Shown here one piece after another: positions 3,543-11,349 of a stretch of 11,349 nt of DNA; the first letter of the stretch is position 1; every line of letters begins with the position of its first letter. Made by a program: the position numbers and the translations under genes. The stretch comes from Anaerolineae bacterium. GTDB taxonomy: Bacteria; Chloroflexota; Anaerolineae; 4572-78; NAK82. The notes under the pieces are model-generated. The model searched no databases. It was not told the origin of the DNA and was given only the letters and a program-made list of their open reading frames with translations. The stretch lies in contig JAUVRU010000032.1 of NCBI GenBank assembly GCA_030597485.1, positions 1 through 11,349 of the forward strand, read 5' to 3'.

Positions 3543-5720
3543 CTAACCCGTTTGGCGAACGGCTTCCACGACATTGGGCAGCCTGGCGATGCGGGCCAGG
3601 ACGCGAGAGAGTTGGTTGACGTCGCTGATTTGCAGCGTCAGCATCATCTTGGCCATGTGATTCTTGGGGTGGGTGTACATGTTGGCCGCGCTCATATTGA
3701 TGGTTTCTTCGGCGATGACCGAGGTGATGTCGCGCATCAGGCCGGGGCGGTCGAAAGCTTCAACCTCTACGTGCACCGGATAGGTCTCAGTCGCCTCTTC
3801 TCCCCATTCTACCTCTATCAAGCGTTCGTTGTCGGACATGCGTAGGATGTTCGGGCAGTCTTGCCGGTGGATGGTGACCCCGCGCCCCCGGGTTACGTAT
3901 CCCAAGATGGGGTCACCTGGCAGGGGATTGCAGCATTGAGCCAGATGCGTCATCAAGTCACCGACGCCTCGCACGCGCACGCCGGCAGGAGCGACTGGTC
4001 GCCGGCGCACCTGGGGCGTGGGCATCTCGAACGCTGTCTGAATGGGCTTTACCAGGTCCAGAACACGACCGGCGATCTGTTGCGAGTTGATGTCGCCGGC
4101 GCCGATGGCTGCCAACACATCCTCCACGTCTTCCAGGTTGAACTTCTTGGCAATCTGTTCGAATGGAATGTCGCTTAAGCCCAGACGCTTCAATTCGCCT
4201 TCGAGCACTTCCCGGCCCTGGGCGATGTTCTGCTCCCGATTCTGACGCTTGAGCCACTGGCGGATCTTGCGTCGCGCCCGGGTGGTCTTGACATAGCCCA
4301 GGTGAGGGTTGAGCCAGTCCAGACTGGGGCCGCCCCGTTTTGCCGTGAGTATCTCCACCATATCGCCGTTCTTGAGCTGATAGTCCAGGCTGACCAGCCG
4401 CCCGTTCACTTTCGCCCCGCGACAGCGATTGCCCACCTCGGTGTGGACGTAATACGCGAAGTCAATCGGGGTTGCCCCATGGGGCAATTCGAATATGTCC
4501 CCCTTGGGGGTGAGGGCATAGACGTGTTCCTGAAAGACATCGGTCTTGAGCGAGTCAACAAACTCGTGAGCGTCGGCCAAGTCCTGTGGCCACTCCATCA
4601 ACTGTCGCAGCCACGCTATCTTGTTGTCGAAGGCGGGGTCTGGCTTATGGCTTTCCTTGTACCGCCAGTGGGCAGCGATGCCCAGCTCCGCTGTGTGGTG
4701 CATCCCATAGGTGCGGATCTGCACTTCCAATGGTCTGCCGCCTGGTCCCACCACCGCAGTATGCAATGAACGATACAGGTTGTCCTTTGGGGTAGCGATG
4801 TAGTCGTCGAACTCGCCAGGAATGGGGCTCCATTTCCCGTGAATCGCTCCCAGCGCAGCGTAGCAGTCGCGAACCTCCTCCACAATGATGCGAACCGCTC
4901 GCACGTCATAGATCTGATCAAACTCCACCGTCTTGCGCTGCATCTTGCGGAAAACGCTGTAAGCATGTTTGGATCGCCCATACACTTCGCTGTTTATGCC
5001 GGCGTTCTCAAGTTCTTGTTTCACCAGTTCGACGACTTTGCCGATATGCCGCTCCCGGTCAGGCCGGCGTTCGTCAATCAAAGAGGTTATTTCTTTGAAC
5101 CTCTCTGGCTCCAGGAAACGGAATGACAGATCCTCCAATTCCCATTTCATTTGCCAGATGCCCAGTCGATTGGCCAGGGGGGCAAAGATCTCTAACGTCT
5201 CGAGCGCGATTCGCTTGCGCTTCTCTTCCGGCAACGAGCCGAGGGTGCGCATGTTATGAAGCCGGTCGGCCAGCTTGATCAGAACCACACGGACATCGTC
5301 TACCATCGCCAGGAACATCTTGCGGAGACTCTCAGCTTTGGCGTCCTGCTTGAGGCTGCGCTCGCTGAGACCACTCAGCTGGTCAATGGTGCCCAGTTTG
5401 GTCACACCATCCACCAGACTGGCGATCTCGGTCCCGAACTCTGCCTCCAGCTGCTCATAGGTGATGTCGGTGTCTTCCAGCGTATCGTGCAGGAGGGCTG
5501 CGGCCAATGTACTGGTGTCCAGCCGCAGTTCAGCCAATATGTGGGCGGTTGCCAGGGAATGGCTTATGTAGGGTTCGCCGGAAGCGCGTTTTTGACCACG
5601 GTGCGCCTGGTCAGCGACGTCAAAGGCCCGGCGGAGCAAAGCCCGATCTGACTCGGGCCGGTCCTGTTGAAATTCCGCCAACCAGTTTTCGAATTGGGTG
5701 GTGTGTTTGGACTTTGCCAT
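3543..5720 (-). CDS. rel: Rel/SpoT-family (p)ppGpp synthetase/hydrolase
   Basis: This 725-residue long RSH enzyme makes and/or degrades the stringent-response alarmone (p)ppGpp. Order: HD hydrolase domain (about 25-180) with H54, H78-D79 and E82-D83 in HDTLEDT, and D152/N156 in ADRLHNMRTL, so all expected metal and catalytic residues are present; synthetase domain (about 240-355) with GRSKHAYSVFRKM, FDQIYDVRAVRII, EFDDYIATPKDNLYRSLHT (303-321) and LEVQIRT; TGS domain (about 398-460, VYALTPKGDIFELPHGATPIDFAY); helical region; Cys-containing zinc-finger-like domain (HLAQCCNPLPGDPI at 592-605, DC at 621-622); and C-terminal ACT domain (about 648-725). The acidic EFDD resembles monofunctional RelA, whereas bifunctional Rel usually has RxKD. 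The ATG at 5720 has an AGGG four bases upstream and avoids overlap with the upstream phosphatase gene, whose stop is 22 bases away; an ATA/GTG-region extension to 5789 would overlap it. Last gene of the minus-strand RNase-phosphatase-Rel group. Confidence 0.95.
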   Translation of the reverse strand: MAKSKHTTQFENWLAEFQQDRPESDRALLRRAFDVADQAHRGQKRASGEPYISHSLATAHILAELRLDTSTLAAALLHDTLEDTDITYEQLEAEFGTEIASLVDGVTKLGTIDQLSGLSERSLKQDAKAESLRKMFLAMVDDVRVVLIKLADRLHNMRTLGSLPEEKRKRIALETLEIFAPLANRLGIWQMKWELEDLSFRFLEPERFKEITSLIDERRPDRERHIGKVVELVKQELENAGINSEVYGRSKHAYSVFRKMQRKTVEFDQIYDVRAVRIIVEEVRDCYAALGAIHGKWSPIPGEFDDYIATPKDNLYRSLHTAVVGPGGRPLEVQIRTYGMHHTAELGIAAHWRYKESHKPDPAFDNKIAWLRQLMEWPQDLADAHEFVDSLKTDVFQEHVYALTPKGDIFELPHGATPIDFAYYVHTEVGNRCRGAKVNGRLVSLDYQLKNGDMVEILTAKRGGPSLDWLNPHLGYVKTTRARRKIRQWLKRQNREQNIAQGREVLEGELKRLGLSDIPFEQIAKKFNLEDVEDVLAAIGAGDINSQQIAGRVLDLVKPIQTAFEMPTPQVRRRPVAPAGVRVRGVGDLMTHLAQCCNPLPGDPILGYVTRGRGVTIHRQDCPNILRMSDNERLIEVEWGEEATETYPVHVEVEAFDRPGLMRDITSVIAEETINMSAANMYTHPKNHMAKMMLTLQISDVNQLSRVLARIARLPNVVEAVRQTG

Positions 5721-5742
5721 ATGCCCTGCAAACGTGCTGCGA

Positions 5743-6561
5743 CTAGAAATCGTCCCAATGGGGCATTTGGGGACGTTGTGCCACACCATCTGTGACGTTT
5801 CTGAGCAGCTGGTCCGTTATGTGGGTGATGCTGACAGTGATGTTGTCCTCTCCACCCCGTTCGTTGGCCAGGTCGATCAGCTGGCGAGCAGCCTGTGCGG
5901 ATGGCTGGGGGGTCACGATGTGGGCGATTTCCTGGTCGCTTACGCGCCGGGTCAACCCATCGCTGCAGAGAAAAACCGTGTGGCGTGGCGCAACCTGGCG
6001 TGTGAAGAGATCCACCTTGACGCTGTCGTTGGGACCGACACTTCGCAGAATCACATTTCGGTAGGGGTGAGCCTCAGCCTGTTGGGGAGTGAGGGACCCT
6101 TCATTTATCATCTCGGCGACCAGACTGTGATCCTGCGTGATCTGGTCGATGGTGCCATCGTAAATCAGGTAGGCCCGGCTGTCGCCCACATTGGCCATGG
6201 TCAGTTGATCACCGACGATGAGAGCTGCCACCACAGTGGTGGCCATCTCCCGCCGATCCGTCCGCTCTTGGTTGTGGGCGCAGATGGCGGCATTCGTGGT
6301 ATCGACTGCGCGACACAGGCGGCCGGCGGGAGTTCCGTCCTGGTCCTGGTAATAGCTGTAGATGATTCGCCTTACGGCATACTCGCTGGCCACCTCACCG
6401 GCAGCACCGCCTCCCACCCCATCCGCCAGCACGTACAGCCGCCCATACGTTGCCAACTCGGCTGGGTGATTGGGCTCGTAGCACGCTACGTAATCCTCAT
6501 TATACCGACGCCTGAGACCTATGTCGGATAACTGGCTGGATTCGACTATCCACTCAGGCAC
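5743..6561 (-). CDS. PP2C-type Ser/Thr protein phosphatase (Stp/PrpC-like)
   Basis: This 272-residue cytosolic metal-dependent phosphatase removes phosphate from Ser/Thr, usually countering Hanks-type kinases; no kinase is in the window. Family motifs are all present in order: RRRYNEDY (17-24), VLADGVGGGAAGEVAS (44-59), ATTVVAAL (107-114), ANVGDSRAYL (123-132), TQDHSLV (142-148), LCSDGLT (198-204) and GGEDNITVSI (236-245), including the metal-binding Asp residues 23, 47, 201 and 239. Length is close to the usual 240-260, with about 25 extra C-terminal residues of no clear function. The start is GTG at 6561, preceded by GAGGAG seven bases upstream; that site overlaps the stop region of the RNase gene (gap 11 bases), implying one transcript. 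The rel gene follows after 22 bases. Confidence 0.94.
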   Translation of the reverse strand: MPEWIVESSQLSDIGLRRRYNEDYVACYEPNHPAELATYGRLYVLADGVGGGAAGEVASEYAVRRIIYSYYQDQDGTPAGRLCRAVDTTNAAICAHNQERTDRREMATTVVAALIVGDQLTMANVGDSRAYLIYDGTIDQITQDHSLVAEMINEGSLTPQQAEAHPYRNVILRSVGPNDSVKVDLFTRQVAPRHTVFLCSDGLTRRVSDQEIAHIVTPQPSAQAARQLIDLANERGGEDNITVSITHITDQLLRNVTDGVAQRPQMPHWDDF

Positions 6562-6572
6562 TGGGGAACTCC

Positions 6573-7988
6573 TCAGCTCTCAAGCTTCAATTCGAACGTT
6601 TGGCCCCGCTGTGGGACCTCAACCGGCGATATCCCTTGCTGCTCGAGCGCTTTGGCCAGAGCAAAACTGCTTTCTTCCTCGCCGTGAACCAGGAACAAGC
6701 ATTTCAGCGTGCCCTTTTCTTGGATGCGCGAGGCCCACTCCAGGAGCTCTGTCCGGTCGGCGTGGGCGCTGTAGCCTTCGGCGCGTTGTATTGTGGCTTT
6801 CACGCTGTATTGCTCGCCAAAGATGGGCACCGGGTCCTGCCCATCCAGTAGCTTTCGGCCAAGGGTGTTCTCTGCCTGAAAGCCCACGAACAAGACGATA
6901 GTGCTTGGATCCTCGATGTTGTTTTTCAAGTGATGCAGGATACGTCCCGCTTCGCACATGCCGGAGGCGCTGATGATGATGGCCGGGGTGGTCAGGGTGT
7001 TCAGTCTCTTGGATTTCTCCGCATGGCGGATGTAGCTCAGGTGCCGAAACCCCAGCGGATCGCGATCAGTTTCCTGAAGCATGGCGTCGAGCATTTCTGT
7101 GTCGTAGCATTCGGGATGCAGGCGGAAAACCTCAGTGACGTTCACTGCCAGCGGGCTGTCCACGAAGACGTCGATGGGCGGCAAGGCATGCTCTTCCCAC
7201 AGCTGGTTCAGGCGGTAGACCACCTCCTGGGTGCGTCCCACGGCGAAAGAAGGGATTATCAGCTTGGCGTGTCGGTCGTAGACCGATTGAGCGGTCTCAC
7301 GCAGTGCCTCTTTGGCTTCGTCTGCGGACTCGTGCAGGCGATTGCCATACGTGCTCTCCATAATCAGGAAGTCGGCACGGTCTGCCACCTGGGGATCACG
7401 CAGGATGGGAAGTCCCCTGCGCCCGATGTCACCACTGAAGACGATTCGACCTCTCTGCCCATTGTCATTCACGTCCATCACAATGATGGCTGATCCCAGG
7501 ATGTGTCCTGCGTCAAGGAAATGGGCTGTGAGGCCGGGAATCGGCTCAAAGGTTTGGTTGTACTCGATACAGGCGAAGTGGTTGAGCGTGGCCATCGCGT
7601 CTACCTGGGTATAGAGCGGCTCGAAGAGGTGTTTGCCTTGCTTCCGGCGGCGCCTGTTGACGTAAGCGACATCACTCTCGTGGATGTGTGCCGAGTCAAG
7701 CAGCATCAAGGCGTCCAGGTCGCGGGTGGCCGACGTGGCGTATATCTTGCCTCTGAAGCCGGCCTTGACCAACGAGGGCAGATTGCCGCTATGGTCGATG
7801 TGGGCGTGCGATAGGAGAACCGCGTCGATATGACGGGCATCGAACGGGAAGTTGCGATTGATCTCAAATGCTTTCTTGCGATTGCCTTGGTAGAGGCCGC
7901 AGTCCAGCAACACCTGGAAACCATTCACCTGGAGCAGGTGCATGGTGCCAGTGACTGACCGGACACCTCCCCAGAATTGAACTCTCAC
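6573..7988 (-). CDS. Beta-CASP metallo-beta-lactamase RNase (YSH1/CPSF73-like)
   Basis: This 471-residue protein belongs to the bacterial branch of the CPSF73-type beta-CASP nucleases (COG1236 group), predicted zinc-dependent RNA endo- or exonucleases. Zinc-site residues are visible: HAHIDHSG (61-68) giving H61, H63, D65 and H66; DAGHILGS (H162); FSGDIGR (D187); and in the C-terminal part YSAHADR (H409) and FLVHGE (H435). The beta-CASP segment is recognised by ESTYGNR (211-217), IIPSFAVGRTQEVVY (244-258) and ISASGMCEAGRILHHL (339-354). Length matches the family (450-470). The start is GTG at 7988 with a perfect AAGGAGG seven bases upstream, which forms an inverted repeat with the spacer. It heads the group RNase-phosphatase-Rel. 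The substrate is unknown; RNA processing is inferred from the family. Confidence 0.93.
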   Translation of the reverse strand: MRVQFWGGVRSVTGTMHLLQVNGFQVLLDCGLYQGNRKKAFEINRNFPFDARHIDAVLLSHAHIDHSGNLPSLVKAGFRGKIYATSATRDLDALMLLDSAHIHESDVAYVNRRRRKQGKHLFEPLYTQVDAMATLNHFACIEYNQTFEPIPGLTAHFLDAGHILGSAIIVMDVNDNGQRGRIVFSGDIGRRGLPILRDPQVADRADFLIMESTYGNRLHESADEAKEALRETAQSVYDRHAKLIIPSFAVGRTQEVVYRLNQLWEEHALPPIDVFVDSPLAVNVTEVFRLHPECYDTEMLDAMLQETDRDPLGFRHLSYIRHAEKSKRLNTLTTPAIIISASGMCEAGRILHHLKNNIEDPSTIVLFVGFQAENTLGRKLLDGQDPVPIFGEQYSVKATIQRAEGYSAHADRTELLEWASRIQEKGTLKCLFLVHGEEESSFALAKALEQQGISPVEVPQRGQTFELKLES

Positions 7989-8098: not shown

Positions 8099-8458
8099 CT
8101 AGGAAGCCTCTATCTTCTTTCCGTCTTTCACGCCCCTCCATCTGTTGAACAGATGGGCAATGGCCAGGCGCGGATGGCTGAACAGCATCCGTGGCCCGGC
8201 AAAGCGCATGACGCGAGTGATTTCCTGCCGCATAGCTGGTCGGTAGCAGTGAGTGGGGCACTTCGAACATACGGGTTTCTGTTCGCCAAACTTGCACTTG
8301 TCCAGCTGCAACCAGGCGTAGTCAAGAATCTGGCGACATCTCTCGCAGAGGCCGCTTTCTGTCCCGTGTTCCTCCCTGCAGTAGAGGTGAACCATAGCCG
8401 CCACGGTTTTCTTCTCATTCAGGATTCGGTTGCTCCGCAATGCGATCAATCGCCTCAC
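8099..8458 (-). CDS. YgbA-family 'nitrous oxide-stimulated promoter' protein
   Basis: This 119-residue Cys-rich protein resembles the family of E. coli YgbA (PF11756), which is induced by nitric oxide/nitrosative stress but whose biochemical role is not well settled. Visible family features: EKKTVAAMVHLYC (15-27), LCERCRQILDYAWLQLDKC (37-55), FGEQKPVCSKCPTHCY (57-72), MRQEITRVMRFAGPRML (76-92) and HPRLAIAHL (95-103). Cys 38/41, 55 and 64/67/71 look like a metal or Fe-S site (inference). No signal peptide, so probably cytosolic. The frame starts with GTG at 8458; the nearest ribosome-site-like sequence (GGAAGG) is about 12 bases upstream, so the exact start is uncertain, though the conserved region begins only 14 residues in. 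It follows the membrane protein gene by 31 bases and may share its transcript, linking the cytochrome group to nitrogen-oxide stress. Confidence 0.85.
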   Translation of the reverse strand: MRRLIALRSNRILNEKKTVAAMVHLYCREEHGTESGLCERCRQILDYAWLQLDKCKFGEQKPVCSKCPTHCYRPAMRQEITRVMRFAGPRMLFSHPRLAIAHLFNRWRGVKDGKKIEAS

Positions 8459-8489: not shown

Positions 8490-9401
8490 TTACCGCGCTC
8501 TTGGGCGCGGCAGCTGTTCGCTGGGATTCATTAACGCGATCAGCCCCCGGACACCCATATTCGAGAAGAGCAGTGGTGCCAGGAAAGGCGCGCCGCGAAT
8601 AAACCGCTCGGGTACAATGACGTATTGGCTGGTAAGGTTGGTCTTGACGTGAAGGGCCGCACCGACCACACCAACCAGGATGAGCATCAGCATCGCGCCC
8701 ACAAAGGTGGTAGTGTCTGATCGGGTAGGCCTGTCCATGACGGCCAGGGCCACAGTCACCACAATGGCAAAGATACCGGCTGCTGTGGGGACCCACAACC
8801 AGGGGTTCTGAAAATCGGTGCGTGCGTGGTCCAACACGCTCCTGATGAGCGTGGCCAGACTCCCCAGACCCACCCAGAGGAGGTAGGCTCGGGTCTTGCT
8901 GAAAGGCAGGCACACCCTTCGTCCCGCCGGCAGCGCCAACATTCCGCTATCAGGCGGGTCCTCAAGCAAGATGGCACTGATGCCCAATACGCCCACCAGC
9001 GCAAACGTGAGCGGTGCCAGGATCGGGGGAGCCCATACCAGATAGTCGACCGTGACCTGCTGACCGGCGGGTCCGTAGGGGAGGATAGCTCGTATCACGT
9101 GGAAATATGCCCCCAGGAGTCCGACGACGATGCTGACCAGCGACACAACGACGGCGATGCCAGTGGCCAGTCGCCGCCGTCGTACGGCGATGATACCTGC
9201 CAACAAGAACACTACCCCGGCGATAGGGCCAAAGATGATGGGGATCCATTCCCTCGGTACAATCGTTCCGCTAACACTGTGGGCCAGGTAGATGTCGACT
9301 CCCAGGAATATCTCGTTGATGGCCACCATCAGCATCATCATCTGGTCCCGGGAGAGAGGCAGCCGGCGAGCATGTGGCAGAGTTGAGGCTACGGTTGCCA
9401 T
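8490..9401 (-). CDS. Unrecognised eight-helix membrane protein with internal duplication
   Basis: This 303-residue protein matches no family I can name. It has eight predicted membrane helices at about 21-42, 53-72, 79-102, 121-146, 171-191, 201-222, 231-252 and 269-291. Basic stretches (N-terminus, RRRR at 74-77, the 160-171 loop, the C-terminal RPRAR) put both ends and the even loops inside. The halves are related: LAHS/LDHA (H41, H192), GLLGAYFHV/GVVGAALHV (H101, H251) and APPILAPLTF/APFLAPLLF recur about 147-151 residues apart. Each His pair lies at the outer ends of the first and third helix of its half. No CxxCH. The ATG at 9401 is two bases after the cytochrome stop, with GGGGGA just upstream overlapping that gene's end, so translation is probably coupled. 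I infer a membrane partner of the octaheme cytochrome, perhaps a quinone- or haem-b-binding subunit. The frame is open up to 9557, but that longer form would overlap the cytochrome gene. Confidence 0.8.
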   Translation of the reverse strand: MATVASTLPHARRLPLSRDQMMMLMVAINEIFLGVDIYLAHSVSGTIVPREWIPIIFGPIAGVVFLLAGIIAVRRRRLATGIAVVVSLVSIVVGLLGAYFHVIRAILPYGPAGQQVTVDYLVWAPPILAPLTFALVGVLGISAILLEDPPDSGMLALPAGRRVCLPFSKTRAYLLWVGLGSLATLIRSVLDHARTDFQNPWLWVPTAAGIFAIVVTVALAVMDRPTRSDTTTFVGAMLMLILVGVVGAALHVKTNLTSQYVIVPERFIRGAPFLAPLLFSNMGVRGLIALMNPSEQLPRPRAR

Positions 9402-9403
9402 CG

Positions 9404-10699
9404 CTAATCCCCCGCTTCTTCGGCTTCCAGTTTTTCGTGGGCAATCTCGCGTAATTCGGCCAGGTCGTTGAGGATCTCGTAGGCGCCGTGCCATTGCACG
9501 TAGTCTGGTCCCTGCATCCAGGCGCCGAACTTGGCCGTGCGGCCCCAATGGTGCCACAGGTTGAAGTAGGTGAAGTCAATCGGCTGGTCGAATGGCGCAT
9601 CGGTCAGCAATCCTTGCTCTTTCAGAGGCGCCACGATTTCGTTGCTCTCCACCACCCAGGCATTGACTGCCTCGGTGGCTTTGTCGGCATCGGCATAGAA
9701 GGTTTCGATGAAGTTGACGTTGTGACATTCCAGGCACACATTTTGCATCTGTGTTCTGTTCTCCTGCCAGTCGGGACGCCGCTCACTGATGGGCGGGAAT
9801 AGATACCACGCCAGGCGATCTCCCACATCGTGGGTGGTGGTGCTGGCGCCGAAGCCACTCATGTGACAGATGGCACAGGTGGCGGCGGGGAAGTCAGTTA
9901 CCTTCAGCGTGCCCGGCTCTGCCTCCCAGTGCCAGTCATGACCGCCCGTCATGTAGGCGATGCCGTGCGGGGATTCCTGGTAGATCTCCCACTGGGGATG
10001 GTCAGGTCCGATGTGACAGGCATTGCACGTTTCCGGTTTGCGTGCCTGTTCCAGGCTGAACTGGTGTCGCAGGTGGCAGCCTTGACACTGGCCCACCGAA
10101 CCGTCAGCCCCCGGTTGGCCAATGCCGTGGCAGGTTTCACAGGCGAAGCGGGTGATGTCGGGGCCCTCCAGGGCATACAGCGCGTTACGCGACTTGTCGG
10201 GTGCATAACTGCCTTCGGGTATGGCCTCATACTGCGCCAGCAGTTGGGGCGAAAGGTCCTGGGAACCGGCATAGGCAACGTAGGCCGGCAGCGCGTGACG
10301 ACTTTGGTAGTATTGAGCCACCTCAGTGGCGTGACACTCCTGGCACCTAGCGGTGGTCGGCTGCTGCAGCACATAGGTGCCCTCGTGTAGCACCGCACCG
10401 GGGTAGTCGCTCTTGACCTCGTGGCAGTCGCGACAAGTGACCTCAGCTGCGGCCATCGTGCTATGGCCGAATTGCTGCACGATGCCTGGCGATGTGCGCC
10501 GGTGACAGGTCACACAGTCATCCTTGCTGTTGGCCAGCGCGTCCACTGGCTCCGCTGGCGTGGAGGTGGCTGGCTGCGCGATGGCCTGCATGATCAGCGC
10601 CAGGCCCAGCGCGATAATGGTTACCACCAGCCCAATGACGAACAGGCGCAAGGAACTCAGTCGCCGGGATAGATTAGCGGGGCGGTTGTCCTCGGTCAT
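9404..10699 (-). CDS. Membrane-anchored octaheme cytochrome c, hydroxylamine oxidoreductase (HAO)-like
   Basis: This 431-residue protein has eight CxxCH haem-attachment motifs at residues 62, 89, 119, 187, 205, 225, 275 and 322 (CVTCH, CRDCH, CQECH, CETCH, CQGCH, CNACH, CAICH, CLECH). After a basic start, residues 19-40 form a hydrophobic segment without an obvious signal-peptidase site, so it is probably an N-terminal anchor with the haems outside the membrane. HAO-type features: GPDHPQWEIYQESPHG after the sixth haem; PDWQENRTQMQNVCLECH at the eighth; and the haem-free C-terminal helical region with LWHHWGRTAKFGAWMQGPDY then QWHGAYE. HAO relatives oxidise hydroxylamine, or reduce hydroxylamine/nitrite when the Tyr cross-link to haem 4 is missing. 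Y400 or Y407 could be that Tyr, but I cannot decide by eye. It is shorter than nitrifier HAO (over 500). ATG at 10699 has GGGAGGG about five bases upstream. It lies 53 bases after the DUF166 gene and two bases before the membrane protein gene. Confidence 0.88.
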   Translation of the reverse strand: MTEDNRPANLSRRLSSLRLFVIGLVVTIIALGLALIMQAIAQPATSTPAEPVDALANSKDDCVTCHRRTSPGIVQQFGHSTMAAAEVTCRDCHEVKSDYPGAVLHEGTYVLQQPTTARCQECHATEVAQYYQSRHALPAYVAYAGSQDLSPQLLAQYEAIPEGSYAPDKSRNALYALEGPDITRFACETCHGIGQPGADGSVGQCQGCHLRHQFSLEQARKPETCNACHIGPDHPQWEIYQESPHGIAYMTGGHDWHWEAEPGTLKVTDFPAATCAICHMSGFGASTTTHDVGDRLAWYLFPPISERRPDWQENRTQMQNVCLECHNVNFIETFYADADKATEAVNAWVVESNEIVAPLKEQGLLTDAPFDQPIDFTYFNLWHHWGRTAKFGAWMQGPDYVQWHGAYEILNDLAELREIAHEKLEAEEAGD

Positions 10700-10752: not shown

Positions 10753-11349
10753 CTAGTCACTGCGCGTGGTTGGGGCAAAATAGCGCACACGCTTGAACGG
10801 TTTGACCTGTTGACCGACGCCATCCTTCATTATGTTGCCCGAGATGTGCATCAACGTGTCGCCGTAGTCGGCATCTATTCCCATAGCGGCCAAACAGGGG
10901 TAGTGATGATGCAACAGGCCAGCTTCCTGTTCCGCGTCGTCAGCCGAGATACCCACCAAACCCTGAGCTACGTGTCGCGCACAGCCGCAGACAGCGTCAC
11001 GCACGACTTCGGCGGATGTGACAGTCCTGGTCTCCGGATCTATGGTGAGACGCCATTCCGGTTGGCCGAAATGGCGCGCGAATTCGACGATGAGTGGGTG
11101 GTCGGATGCGATGTGGGTGTGGCGACCGATACTGTAGTGCGTTTCCGTCAACGAACAAAGCGGTTTGGGAGTCACGCATGCCACTTCCATGTTCTTCAGC
11201 CAACCCCGCAGCTGGCGCGCCAGTCCGCGTGGCAGCCAGGCCTCGCTGTCGATGCCAGCGATTACTGCCTGTGCCCCGGTCATACCAGCCACCTCCGGGA
11301 TCAATTCGGCGATCCCCCTATGCTCGCCGACGGCCAGGATCAAATCAGC
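10753..11349 (-). CDS. DUF166-family protein (5' truncated by window)
   Basis: The frame is open to the window edge, giving the C-terminal 198 residues; TTG at 11343 is not a convincing start because the frame continues upstream without a ribosome site. The fragment resembles DUF166 (PF02593), a family best known from archaea and a few bacteria with no established function. Visible conserved blocks, numbered from the edge: VACVTPKPLCSL (57-67, C58 and C65), EFARHFGQP (89-97), VVRDAVCGCARHVAQGLVG (115-133, C121 and C123), GLLHHHYPCLAAMGID (144-159, C152) and TLMHISGNIMKDGV (165-178). The five Cys and the run of His suggest a metal or Fe-S site (inference). Some databases attach a thymidylate-synthase label to this family; nothing visible here supports that. 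It is first in the minus-strand group leading into the cytochrome gene 53 bases on, so co-expression is likely. Confidence 0.72.
   Translation of the reverse strand, partial: ADLILAVGEHRGIAELIPEVAGMTGAQAVIAGIDSEAWLPRGLARQLRGWLKNMEVACVTPKPLCSLTETHYSIGRHTHIASDHPLIVEFARHFGQPEWRLTIDPETRTVTSAEVVRDAVCGCARHVAQGLVGISADDAEQEAGLLHHHYPCLAAMGIDADYGDTLMHISGNIMKDGVGQQVKPFKRVRYFAPTTRSD

Follow-up and report, generated by a model that had tools for sequence, protein, structure and literature searches.

How do octahaem cytochromes of the hydroxylamine oxidoreductase (HAO) type exchange electrons with the membrane? To our knowledge, this is an open question beyond the well-studied nitrifiers and ammonifiers. 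It is raised again by the stretch of Anaerolineae DNA analysed here (JAUVRU010000032.1, 11,349 nucleotides, called the window below), which is a single 11.3-kb contig from a genome estimated to be 72% complete and held in 545 contigs. On the minus strand of the window, a gene for such a cytochrome is followed by a gene for a membrane protein of 303 amino acids (transmembrane protein, TMP). We propose, with a probability of about 0.6, that TMP and the octahaem cytochrome form a two-protein redox module, that TMP is its quinone-linked electron-transfer subunit in the membrane, and that each half of TMP carries one bis-histidine haem b. The proposal concerns the following features.

9404..10699, minus strand: octahaem c-type cytochrome gene, HAO-type, the partner gene (PF13447 Multi-haem_cyto, E 3.7e-30)
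8490..9401, minus strand: TMP gene with its stop codon (open reading frame, eight helices)
8928..9362, minus strand: first four-helix half of TMP, residues 14-158, limits approximate (self-alignment; half modelled alone)
8514..8906, minus strand: second four-helix half of TMP, residues 166-296, limits approximate (self-alignment)
9279..9281, minus strand: CAC codon of H41, end of helix 1 (invariant, also in the half alignment)
9099..9101, minus strand: CAC codon of H101, end of helix 3, in GxxGxxxH (invariant, also in the half alignment)
8826..8828, minus strand: CAC codon of H192, end of helix 5 (invariant)
8649..8651, minus strand: CAC codon of H251, end of helix 7, in GxxGxxxH (invariant)

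TMP is a membrane protein with eight helices, arranged as two homologous halves of four. With profiles from 18 homologues, residues 15-160 aligned with residues 161-303 at an hhalign probability of 97.5 (E 3.1e-11), and the alignment paired H41 with H192 and H101 with H251. The AlphaFold2 model of the whole protein (pLDDT 86.1, pTM 0.85) contained eight long helices, four per half, and the first half modelled alone contained four long helices (pLDDT 88.4, pTM 0.82). An earlier note on this DNA had described a duplicated four-helix membrane protein. The self-alignment bears out the duplication; the number of four helices holds for each half, while the whole protein has eight. The reading frame of TMP starts with ATG at 9401 and stops at 8490, and the list of open reading frames also offers a longer version that starts with GTG at 9557, within the cytochrome gene.

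The four histidines were invariant in all 53 sequences of the close-family alignment, which consisted of the window protein, proteins from 46 of the 62 homologous loci found in GTDB genomes, and six database proteins. Among other positions, E51, R76, R104, D191, R266 and R269 were also invariant in this alignment. A phylum-wide search gave matches in 25 of 301 genomes, and 22 of these were remote relatives with best E-values between 1.2e-7 and 5e-15. Long open frames of 332-490 amino acids, read from stop to stop, were obtained from 17 of the 22, and the four histidines were kept in all 17. The profiles of the close family and the remote branch aligned with an hhalign probability of 99.1 (E 1e-18). 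Conservation of the histidines in homologues, which the earlier note had named as a check, is thus found in both branches. Across a combined alignment of 29 sequences, 22-69% identical to the window protein, the following positions did not vary: the four histidines, G94, G97, G244, G247, G270, G286, P125, P126, P130, P272, P276 and A275. The histidines were the only polar residues among them, the others being glycine, proline and alanine. An alignment of halves only (47 sequences, N-terminal halves and six C-terminal halves) left H41, H101, G94, G97, P125, P126 and P130. G94, G97 and H101 share one helix face (i-7, i-4, i), and a face of small residues beneath a histidine ligand is what a haem would need.

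In the AlphaFold2 model, helices 1, 3, 5 and 7 each carry one of the four histidines close to their C-terminal end, so in an up-down arrangement all four would be on one side of the membrane. Summed from per-loop means, lysine plus arginine came to about 12.0 for the N-terminal side and to 5.75 for the histidine side. By the positive-inside rule, this excess favours a histidine side that faces outwards, which was also the orientation read in the earlier note. The outer side of the membrane is where a c-type cytochrome must sit.

The partner cytochrome has 431 amino acids and contains both eight CxxCH motifs and the PF13447 domain, the two features by which HAO-type membership was judged. Its N-terminus is a hydrophobic stretch and likely an anchor. 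The nearest solved relatives were 4qo5 (E 4.6e-30), which we take to be an Ignicoccus protein, and then HAO (4fas/1fgj; E 7.4e-27). The eight CxxCH motifs, the PF13447 match and the matches to solved structures are shared with the HAO family (HAO, hydrazine dehydrogenase and the 4qo5 protein). Compared with HAO, however, the cytochrome is shorter, begins with a hydrophobic N-terminus, and is closer to 4qo5 by E-value. Its open reading frame stops at 9404, and only two bases (9402-9403) separate it from the TMP gene, as the earlier note had stated.

The gene pair is conserved. An octahaem cytochrome was located directly upstream of TMP on the same strand in 60 of the 62 loci, with estimated gaps of 2-320 bases (median 9, 60 loci). 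Eight CxxCH motifs were found within one frame in 55 of these 60 cytochromes; the other five were incomplete, four being cut by a contig end (L035, L060, L061 and L062, the last two derived from one isolate) and one having a broken frame (L026). Two loci lacked a cytochrome: L076 is a C-terminal remnant whose N-terminal half was not found, and L081 is a match of 26 residues, probably by chance. The close family therefore passes a further check of the earlier note, that homologues should stand beside multihaem cytochromes. Most of the homologous loci were labelled as metagenome-assembled genomes of Chloroflexi/Anaerolineae, and a few as Gemmatimonadetes, Bacteroidetes, Actinomycetota or Acidimicrobiia, and Tectomicrobia, where binning errors are possible. 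Of 61 related genomes, 10 had TMP, and exactly the same 10 had a cytochrome with 59% identity or more; the cytochrome of G008, one of the 10, is divided between two contigs.

Seven of the 61 related genomes contained only more distant octahaem cytochromes, with best matches of 37-44% identity. TMP was not found in these seven genomes with the single sequence or with a 29-sequence profile, which recovered the TMP of G003 alongside. The surroundings of the cytochrome were inspected in six of the seven (G011 was left out). A tetrahaem c-type gene was located directly upstream of the cytochrome in five of them (G007, G009, G015, G017 and G038). The four of these tetrahaem genes that were scanned, all but one that runs into a contig end, belong to the NapC/NirT family (PF03264, E 1.6e-25 or better). 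In G020, the cytochrome had no tetrahaem partner on the contig piece examined. None of the genomes with only a tetrahaem-linked octahaem cytochrome had TMP. The octahaem cytochromes here are mostly paired with either a tetrahaem gene (NapC/NirT-type where scanned) or TMP, an apparent replacement of the quinol dehydrogenase. That tetrahaem genes hold the same place is our strongest argument for a quinone link of TMP. By this analogy, it supports the description of TMP in the earlier note as a quinone-linked partner of HAO-type cytochromes.

Several of the tetrahaem-paired octahaem cytochromes (L133-L137) start with an apparent lipoprotein signal, as judged by eye, and most of the TMP-paired ones have a long N-terminal hydrophobic stretch in the alignment. 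A second octahaem cytochrome of G003 (L139 3727-8012), a genome that carries the pair as well, is followed by a Rieske gene and a weak cytochrome-b-type match below the cut-off, which may be a third way of linking octahaem cytochromes to quinone. A rubrerythrin-like gene stands upstream of the octahaem cytochrome of G124 (L132 6844-8732), a genome of the phylum sample.

From the computed duplication, invariant histidines, gene linkage and replacement pattern we infer a mechanism in which the haem b, the quinone, the direction of the electrons and the substrate are proposals. Each four-helix half would bind a single b-type haem close to the outer face of the membrane, with H41 and H101 as ligands in the first half and H192 and H251 in the second. 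In helices 3 and 7, the small residues of the GxxGxxxH face would leave space for the porphyrin; the propionates could be bound by R104, R266 and R269, which are conserved in the close family. The TMP haems would exchange electrons both with the quinone pool and with the haem chain of the anchored cytochrome on the outer side. This cytochrome would most likely reduce a nitrogen oxide, such as nitrite, nitric oxide or hydroxylamine; less probably, in the opposite direction, oxidation of hydroxylamine would feed quinone. The module would work like HAO with a quinol dehydrogenase of the NapC/NrfH/cM552 type, TMP replacing the tetrahaem subunit. Paired invariant histidines in transmembrane helices, as in TMP, are one criterion of di-haem b-type membrane cytochromes as a kind. 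According to PMC3701875, the NapC/NrfH-related cM552 links the quinone pool and HAO in the HURM model, forward in ammonia oxidisers and, as proposed, in reverse in Nautilia.

TMP was compared with known families. It had no Pfam match near the cut-off, no NCBIfam match and no PDB sequence match. A PDB search with a 53-sequence profile returned only two glycoside hydrolase sequences at E 0.11, which were taken as chance. Foldseek gave no match at E 0.001 or better with the whole or the half model, and the top rows of VIA-align for both models were helical bundles of many kinds. TMP resembles NapC/NrfH/cytochrome cM552 (PF03264) in its place beside an octahaem cytochrome and, by inference, in a role that would link the cytochrome to the quinone pool. 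It differs in having eight membrane helices in place of one anchor and no CxxCH, hence no haem c. The Pfam scan at E of 1 or below gave no PF03264 match, and the translation contains a single cysteine, which agrees with the earlier suggestion that TMP is not of the NapC/NrfH type. Homology to cytochrome b561/Ni_hydr_CYTB was rejected: PF01292 did not match TMP, and hhalign with 10 members gave a probability of 0.07%.

The best-surviving alternative, which we nevertheless consider unlikely, is that TMP is a cofactor-free quinone-binding subunit like NrfD/PsrC, in which the histidines form a quinol or proton site near the outer face and electrons pass straight to the outermost haem of the cytochrome. 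According to PMC8076601, NrfD-like subunits consist of two four-helix repeats, lack redox cofactors and have a quinone site close to the side on which the peripheral subunit sits; one of them, SoeC, is presumed to be inverted. The same two-times-four-helix architecture is seen in TMP, with its partner on one membrane side; this likeness to NrfD/PsrC is one of architecture only. Unlike NrfD/PsrC, TMP has four invariant histidines in symmetric positions and shows no profile similarity. PF03916 missed TMP yet matched two other genes of the same genome above the cut-off, and hhalign with 14 NrfD proteins gave a probability of 0.3% (0.4% for the half), in contrast to 99.1% between the two branches of the TMP family by the same method. 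Comparison with NrfD/PsrC and cytochrome b families was proposed in the earlier note; for NrfD and cytochrome b561 it revealed no sequence relation. No NrfD/PsrC title appeared among the 50 rows listed per fold search, which excludes nothing. No iron-sulphur partner was recognised among the four window genes scanned, and a ferredoxin-cupin-type gene was near the pair in nine of the 62 loci. Two histidines that are repeated in both halves and kept in both branches would also exceed the need of one quinone site.

We regard it as improbable that TMP carries no electrons and is a membrane anchor or an assembly or haem-delivery factor for its partner enzyme. The close gene pairing would fit a dedicated chaperone or anchor equally well, and the partners of the family differ greatly (an octahaem cytochrome and a GMC enzyme). 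However, the hydrophobic N-terminal stretch of the cytochrome can itself serve as the anchor, the tetrahaem genes in the same place (NapC/NirT-type where scanned) point to electron transfer, and a factor for c-haem assembly would leave the relatives beside a flavoenzyme unexplained. It is very improbable that TMP is a metal-dependent membrane enzyme or a metal-binding bundle (e.g., ceramidase-like or ferritin-like) in which the histidines bind Zn, Cu or Fe.

The remote branch was examined at 20 loci from the 22 genomes, with domains named from two loci. Gluconate_2-dh3-like and GMC-oxidoreductase-like matches were located downstream on the same strand in 19 of the 20 loci; in the remaining one (L119), the contig ends inside the gene. 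No multihaem c gene was found among the open reading frames listed around these loci, and two loci had an open reading frame with a single CxxCH. The idea that TMP is a partner of HAO-type cytochromes therefore stands for the close family, but the whole family is wider and has at least two kinds of partner, of which the HAO-type cytochrome is one. The electron-transfer role is supported, because the remote branch also adjoins a redox enzyme. Gluconate 2-dehydrogenase consists of a GMC flavoprotein, subunit 3 and a cytochrome c subunit. The remote branch resembles it in adjoining genes that match the GMC protein and subunit 3, and differs in having a membrane protein in place of the cytochrome c subunit. 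The branch includes Dictyobacter aurantiacus and Ktedonobacter sp. SOSP1-52, where the proteins are annotated as hypothetical. Pfam matches in the remote branch were DUF6320 and DUF6962 (best 3.2e-5), below the curated cut-offs where these were shown. At L116 (1041-11089) and similar loci, genes for a thiamine pyrophosphate enzyme, a mandelate-racemase-like enzyme, the membrane protein, Gluconate_2-dh3 and GMC oxidoreductase recur, and some of these loci add an FAD-oxidase fused to Fer4/CCG domains; the cluster may encode a pathway of acid or sugar oxidation that has yet to be described.

A wider search gave matches in 37 of 400 genomes and added 12 genomes; six of the eight examined had the same GMC and Gluconate_2-dh3 genes. 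The halves were encoded in separate adjacent frames in G162, G207, G260 and G291, and only a single half was found in G184 and G327, which makes the four-helix half the likely unit of the family. At L216 (6232-6750, minus strand), a relative with only one half (E 1.3e-8) retains both histidines in EHTEDALQWVP and GAVLHLNGN. It is downstream of a 204-amino-acid open reading frame that by eye resembles a helix-hairpin-helix lipoprotein, and the stretch examined had no GMC or octahaem match. This half-relative may point to a still wider superfamily. Separate searches for family size, each scoring about 8,000 candidates, gave 2,396 proteins at E of 0.01 or below and 4,209 at E of 0.001 or below, two sets that possibly overlap. 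No Pfam domain was present on the 120 matches listed in either search.

For the cytochrome, there is a weak lean towards reduction from sequence, because 4qo5 is its nearest solved relative. Oxidative HAOs carry a tyrosine cross-link and HAOs without it are predicted to be reductive, according to PMC12758564. Y400 of the partner cytochrome is located in a C-terminal GPDYxxWHG motif and aligns with tryptophan in 4qo5; the 1fgj alignment ends before this region. This position was tyrosine in 27 of 30 aligned cytochromes, including all 24 that adjoin TMP, and tryptophan in three of the five that adjoin tetrahaem genes.

Several observations weigh against TMP as a haem b subunit that takes electrons from quinone to a reductive cytochrome. 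TMP matches no haem-binding family, and pairs of invariant histidines can also be part of haem-free sites for quinone or protons. If Y400 is the cross-linking tyrosine, its conservation would rather favour oxidation. No NarG was found above the cut-off in any of the 10 pair-carrying genomes, so a supply of nitrite by NarG in the same cell is not evident; among the 61 related genomes, NarG was above the cut-off in three, none carrying the pair, and three others had partial narG pieces. G124 has a cytochrome of 55% identity and no TMP match, so the cytochrome can do without TMP. In the remote branch, no export signal was visible in the N-termini of the GMC and subunit-3 proteins (two of each read). 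The charges of this branch are ambiguous, with lysine plus arginine of 20.1 and aspartate plus glutamate of 11.1 on the N-terminal side and 11.3 and 0.6, respectively, on the histidine side. The histidine side of the remote branch may thus face the cytoplasm, with the module inverted, much as presumed for SoeC.

Two further genes flank the pair in the window.

10753..11349, minus strand: DUF166 gene, a loosely linked neighbour that extends past the window edge (PF02593, E 7.6e-35)
8099..8458, minus strand: YgbA_NO gene, downstream neighbour (PF11756, E 1.7e-42)

The YgbA_NO gene is 31 bases downstream of the TMP gene on the same strand. A nitric oxide-response operon was considered on the basis of this gene and rejected, since only one of the 11 related genomes with YgbA (among 61), the window's own, had the pair. 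As the window genome is also the only one of the 10 pair-carrying genomes with YgbA, the link of YgbA to the pair is not conserved. Clustering of neighbours over 62 loci (the window and L020-L080) gave the cytochrome in 60, a ferredoxin-cupin-type gene in nine, a Crp/Fnr-type regulator in seven and DUF166 in five, the window included; the domains of the last three clusters were verified on one representative each. The ferredoxin-cupin-type gene is found near the pair at L067 (5990-6580) and as clustered genes in eight other loci. Window positions 3543-7988 hold apparently unrelated genes, RelA/SpoT-like, PP2C-like phosphatase and metallo-beta-lactamase fold, as read by eye from the list of open reading frames.

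The pair of TMP and an octahaem cytochrome was not recognised as described in the titles and abstract openings of the openly accessible literature. TMP and its relatives most likely form a new family of membrane electron-transfer subunits. We tentatively suggest, at less than even odds, a new superfamily of plug-in redox modules, in which a bis-histidine haem b four-helix unit occurs as single genes, half-gene pairs or a fused double, and would serve unrelated redox enzymes: on the outside the octahaem cytochromes of HAO type and, perhaps on the inside and in inverted form, the GMC flavoenzymes. With TMP, the problem that NapC/NrfH and NrfD solve would have yet another independent solution. 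For many Chloroflexota, the pair of TMP and cytochrome is a concrete, testable answer to the question of how HAO-type octahaem cytochromes exchange electrons with the membrane. Because the family accompanies two very different enzymes, knowing its function would account for thousands of proteins that now lack annotation.
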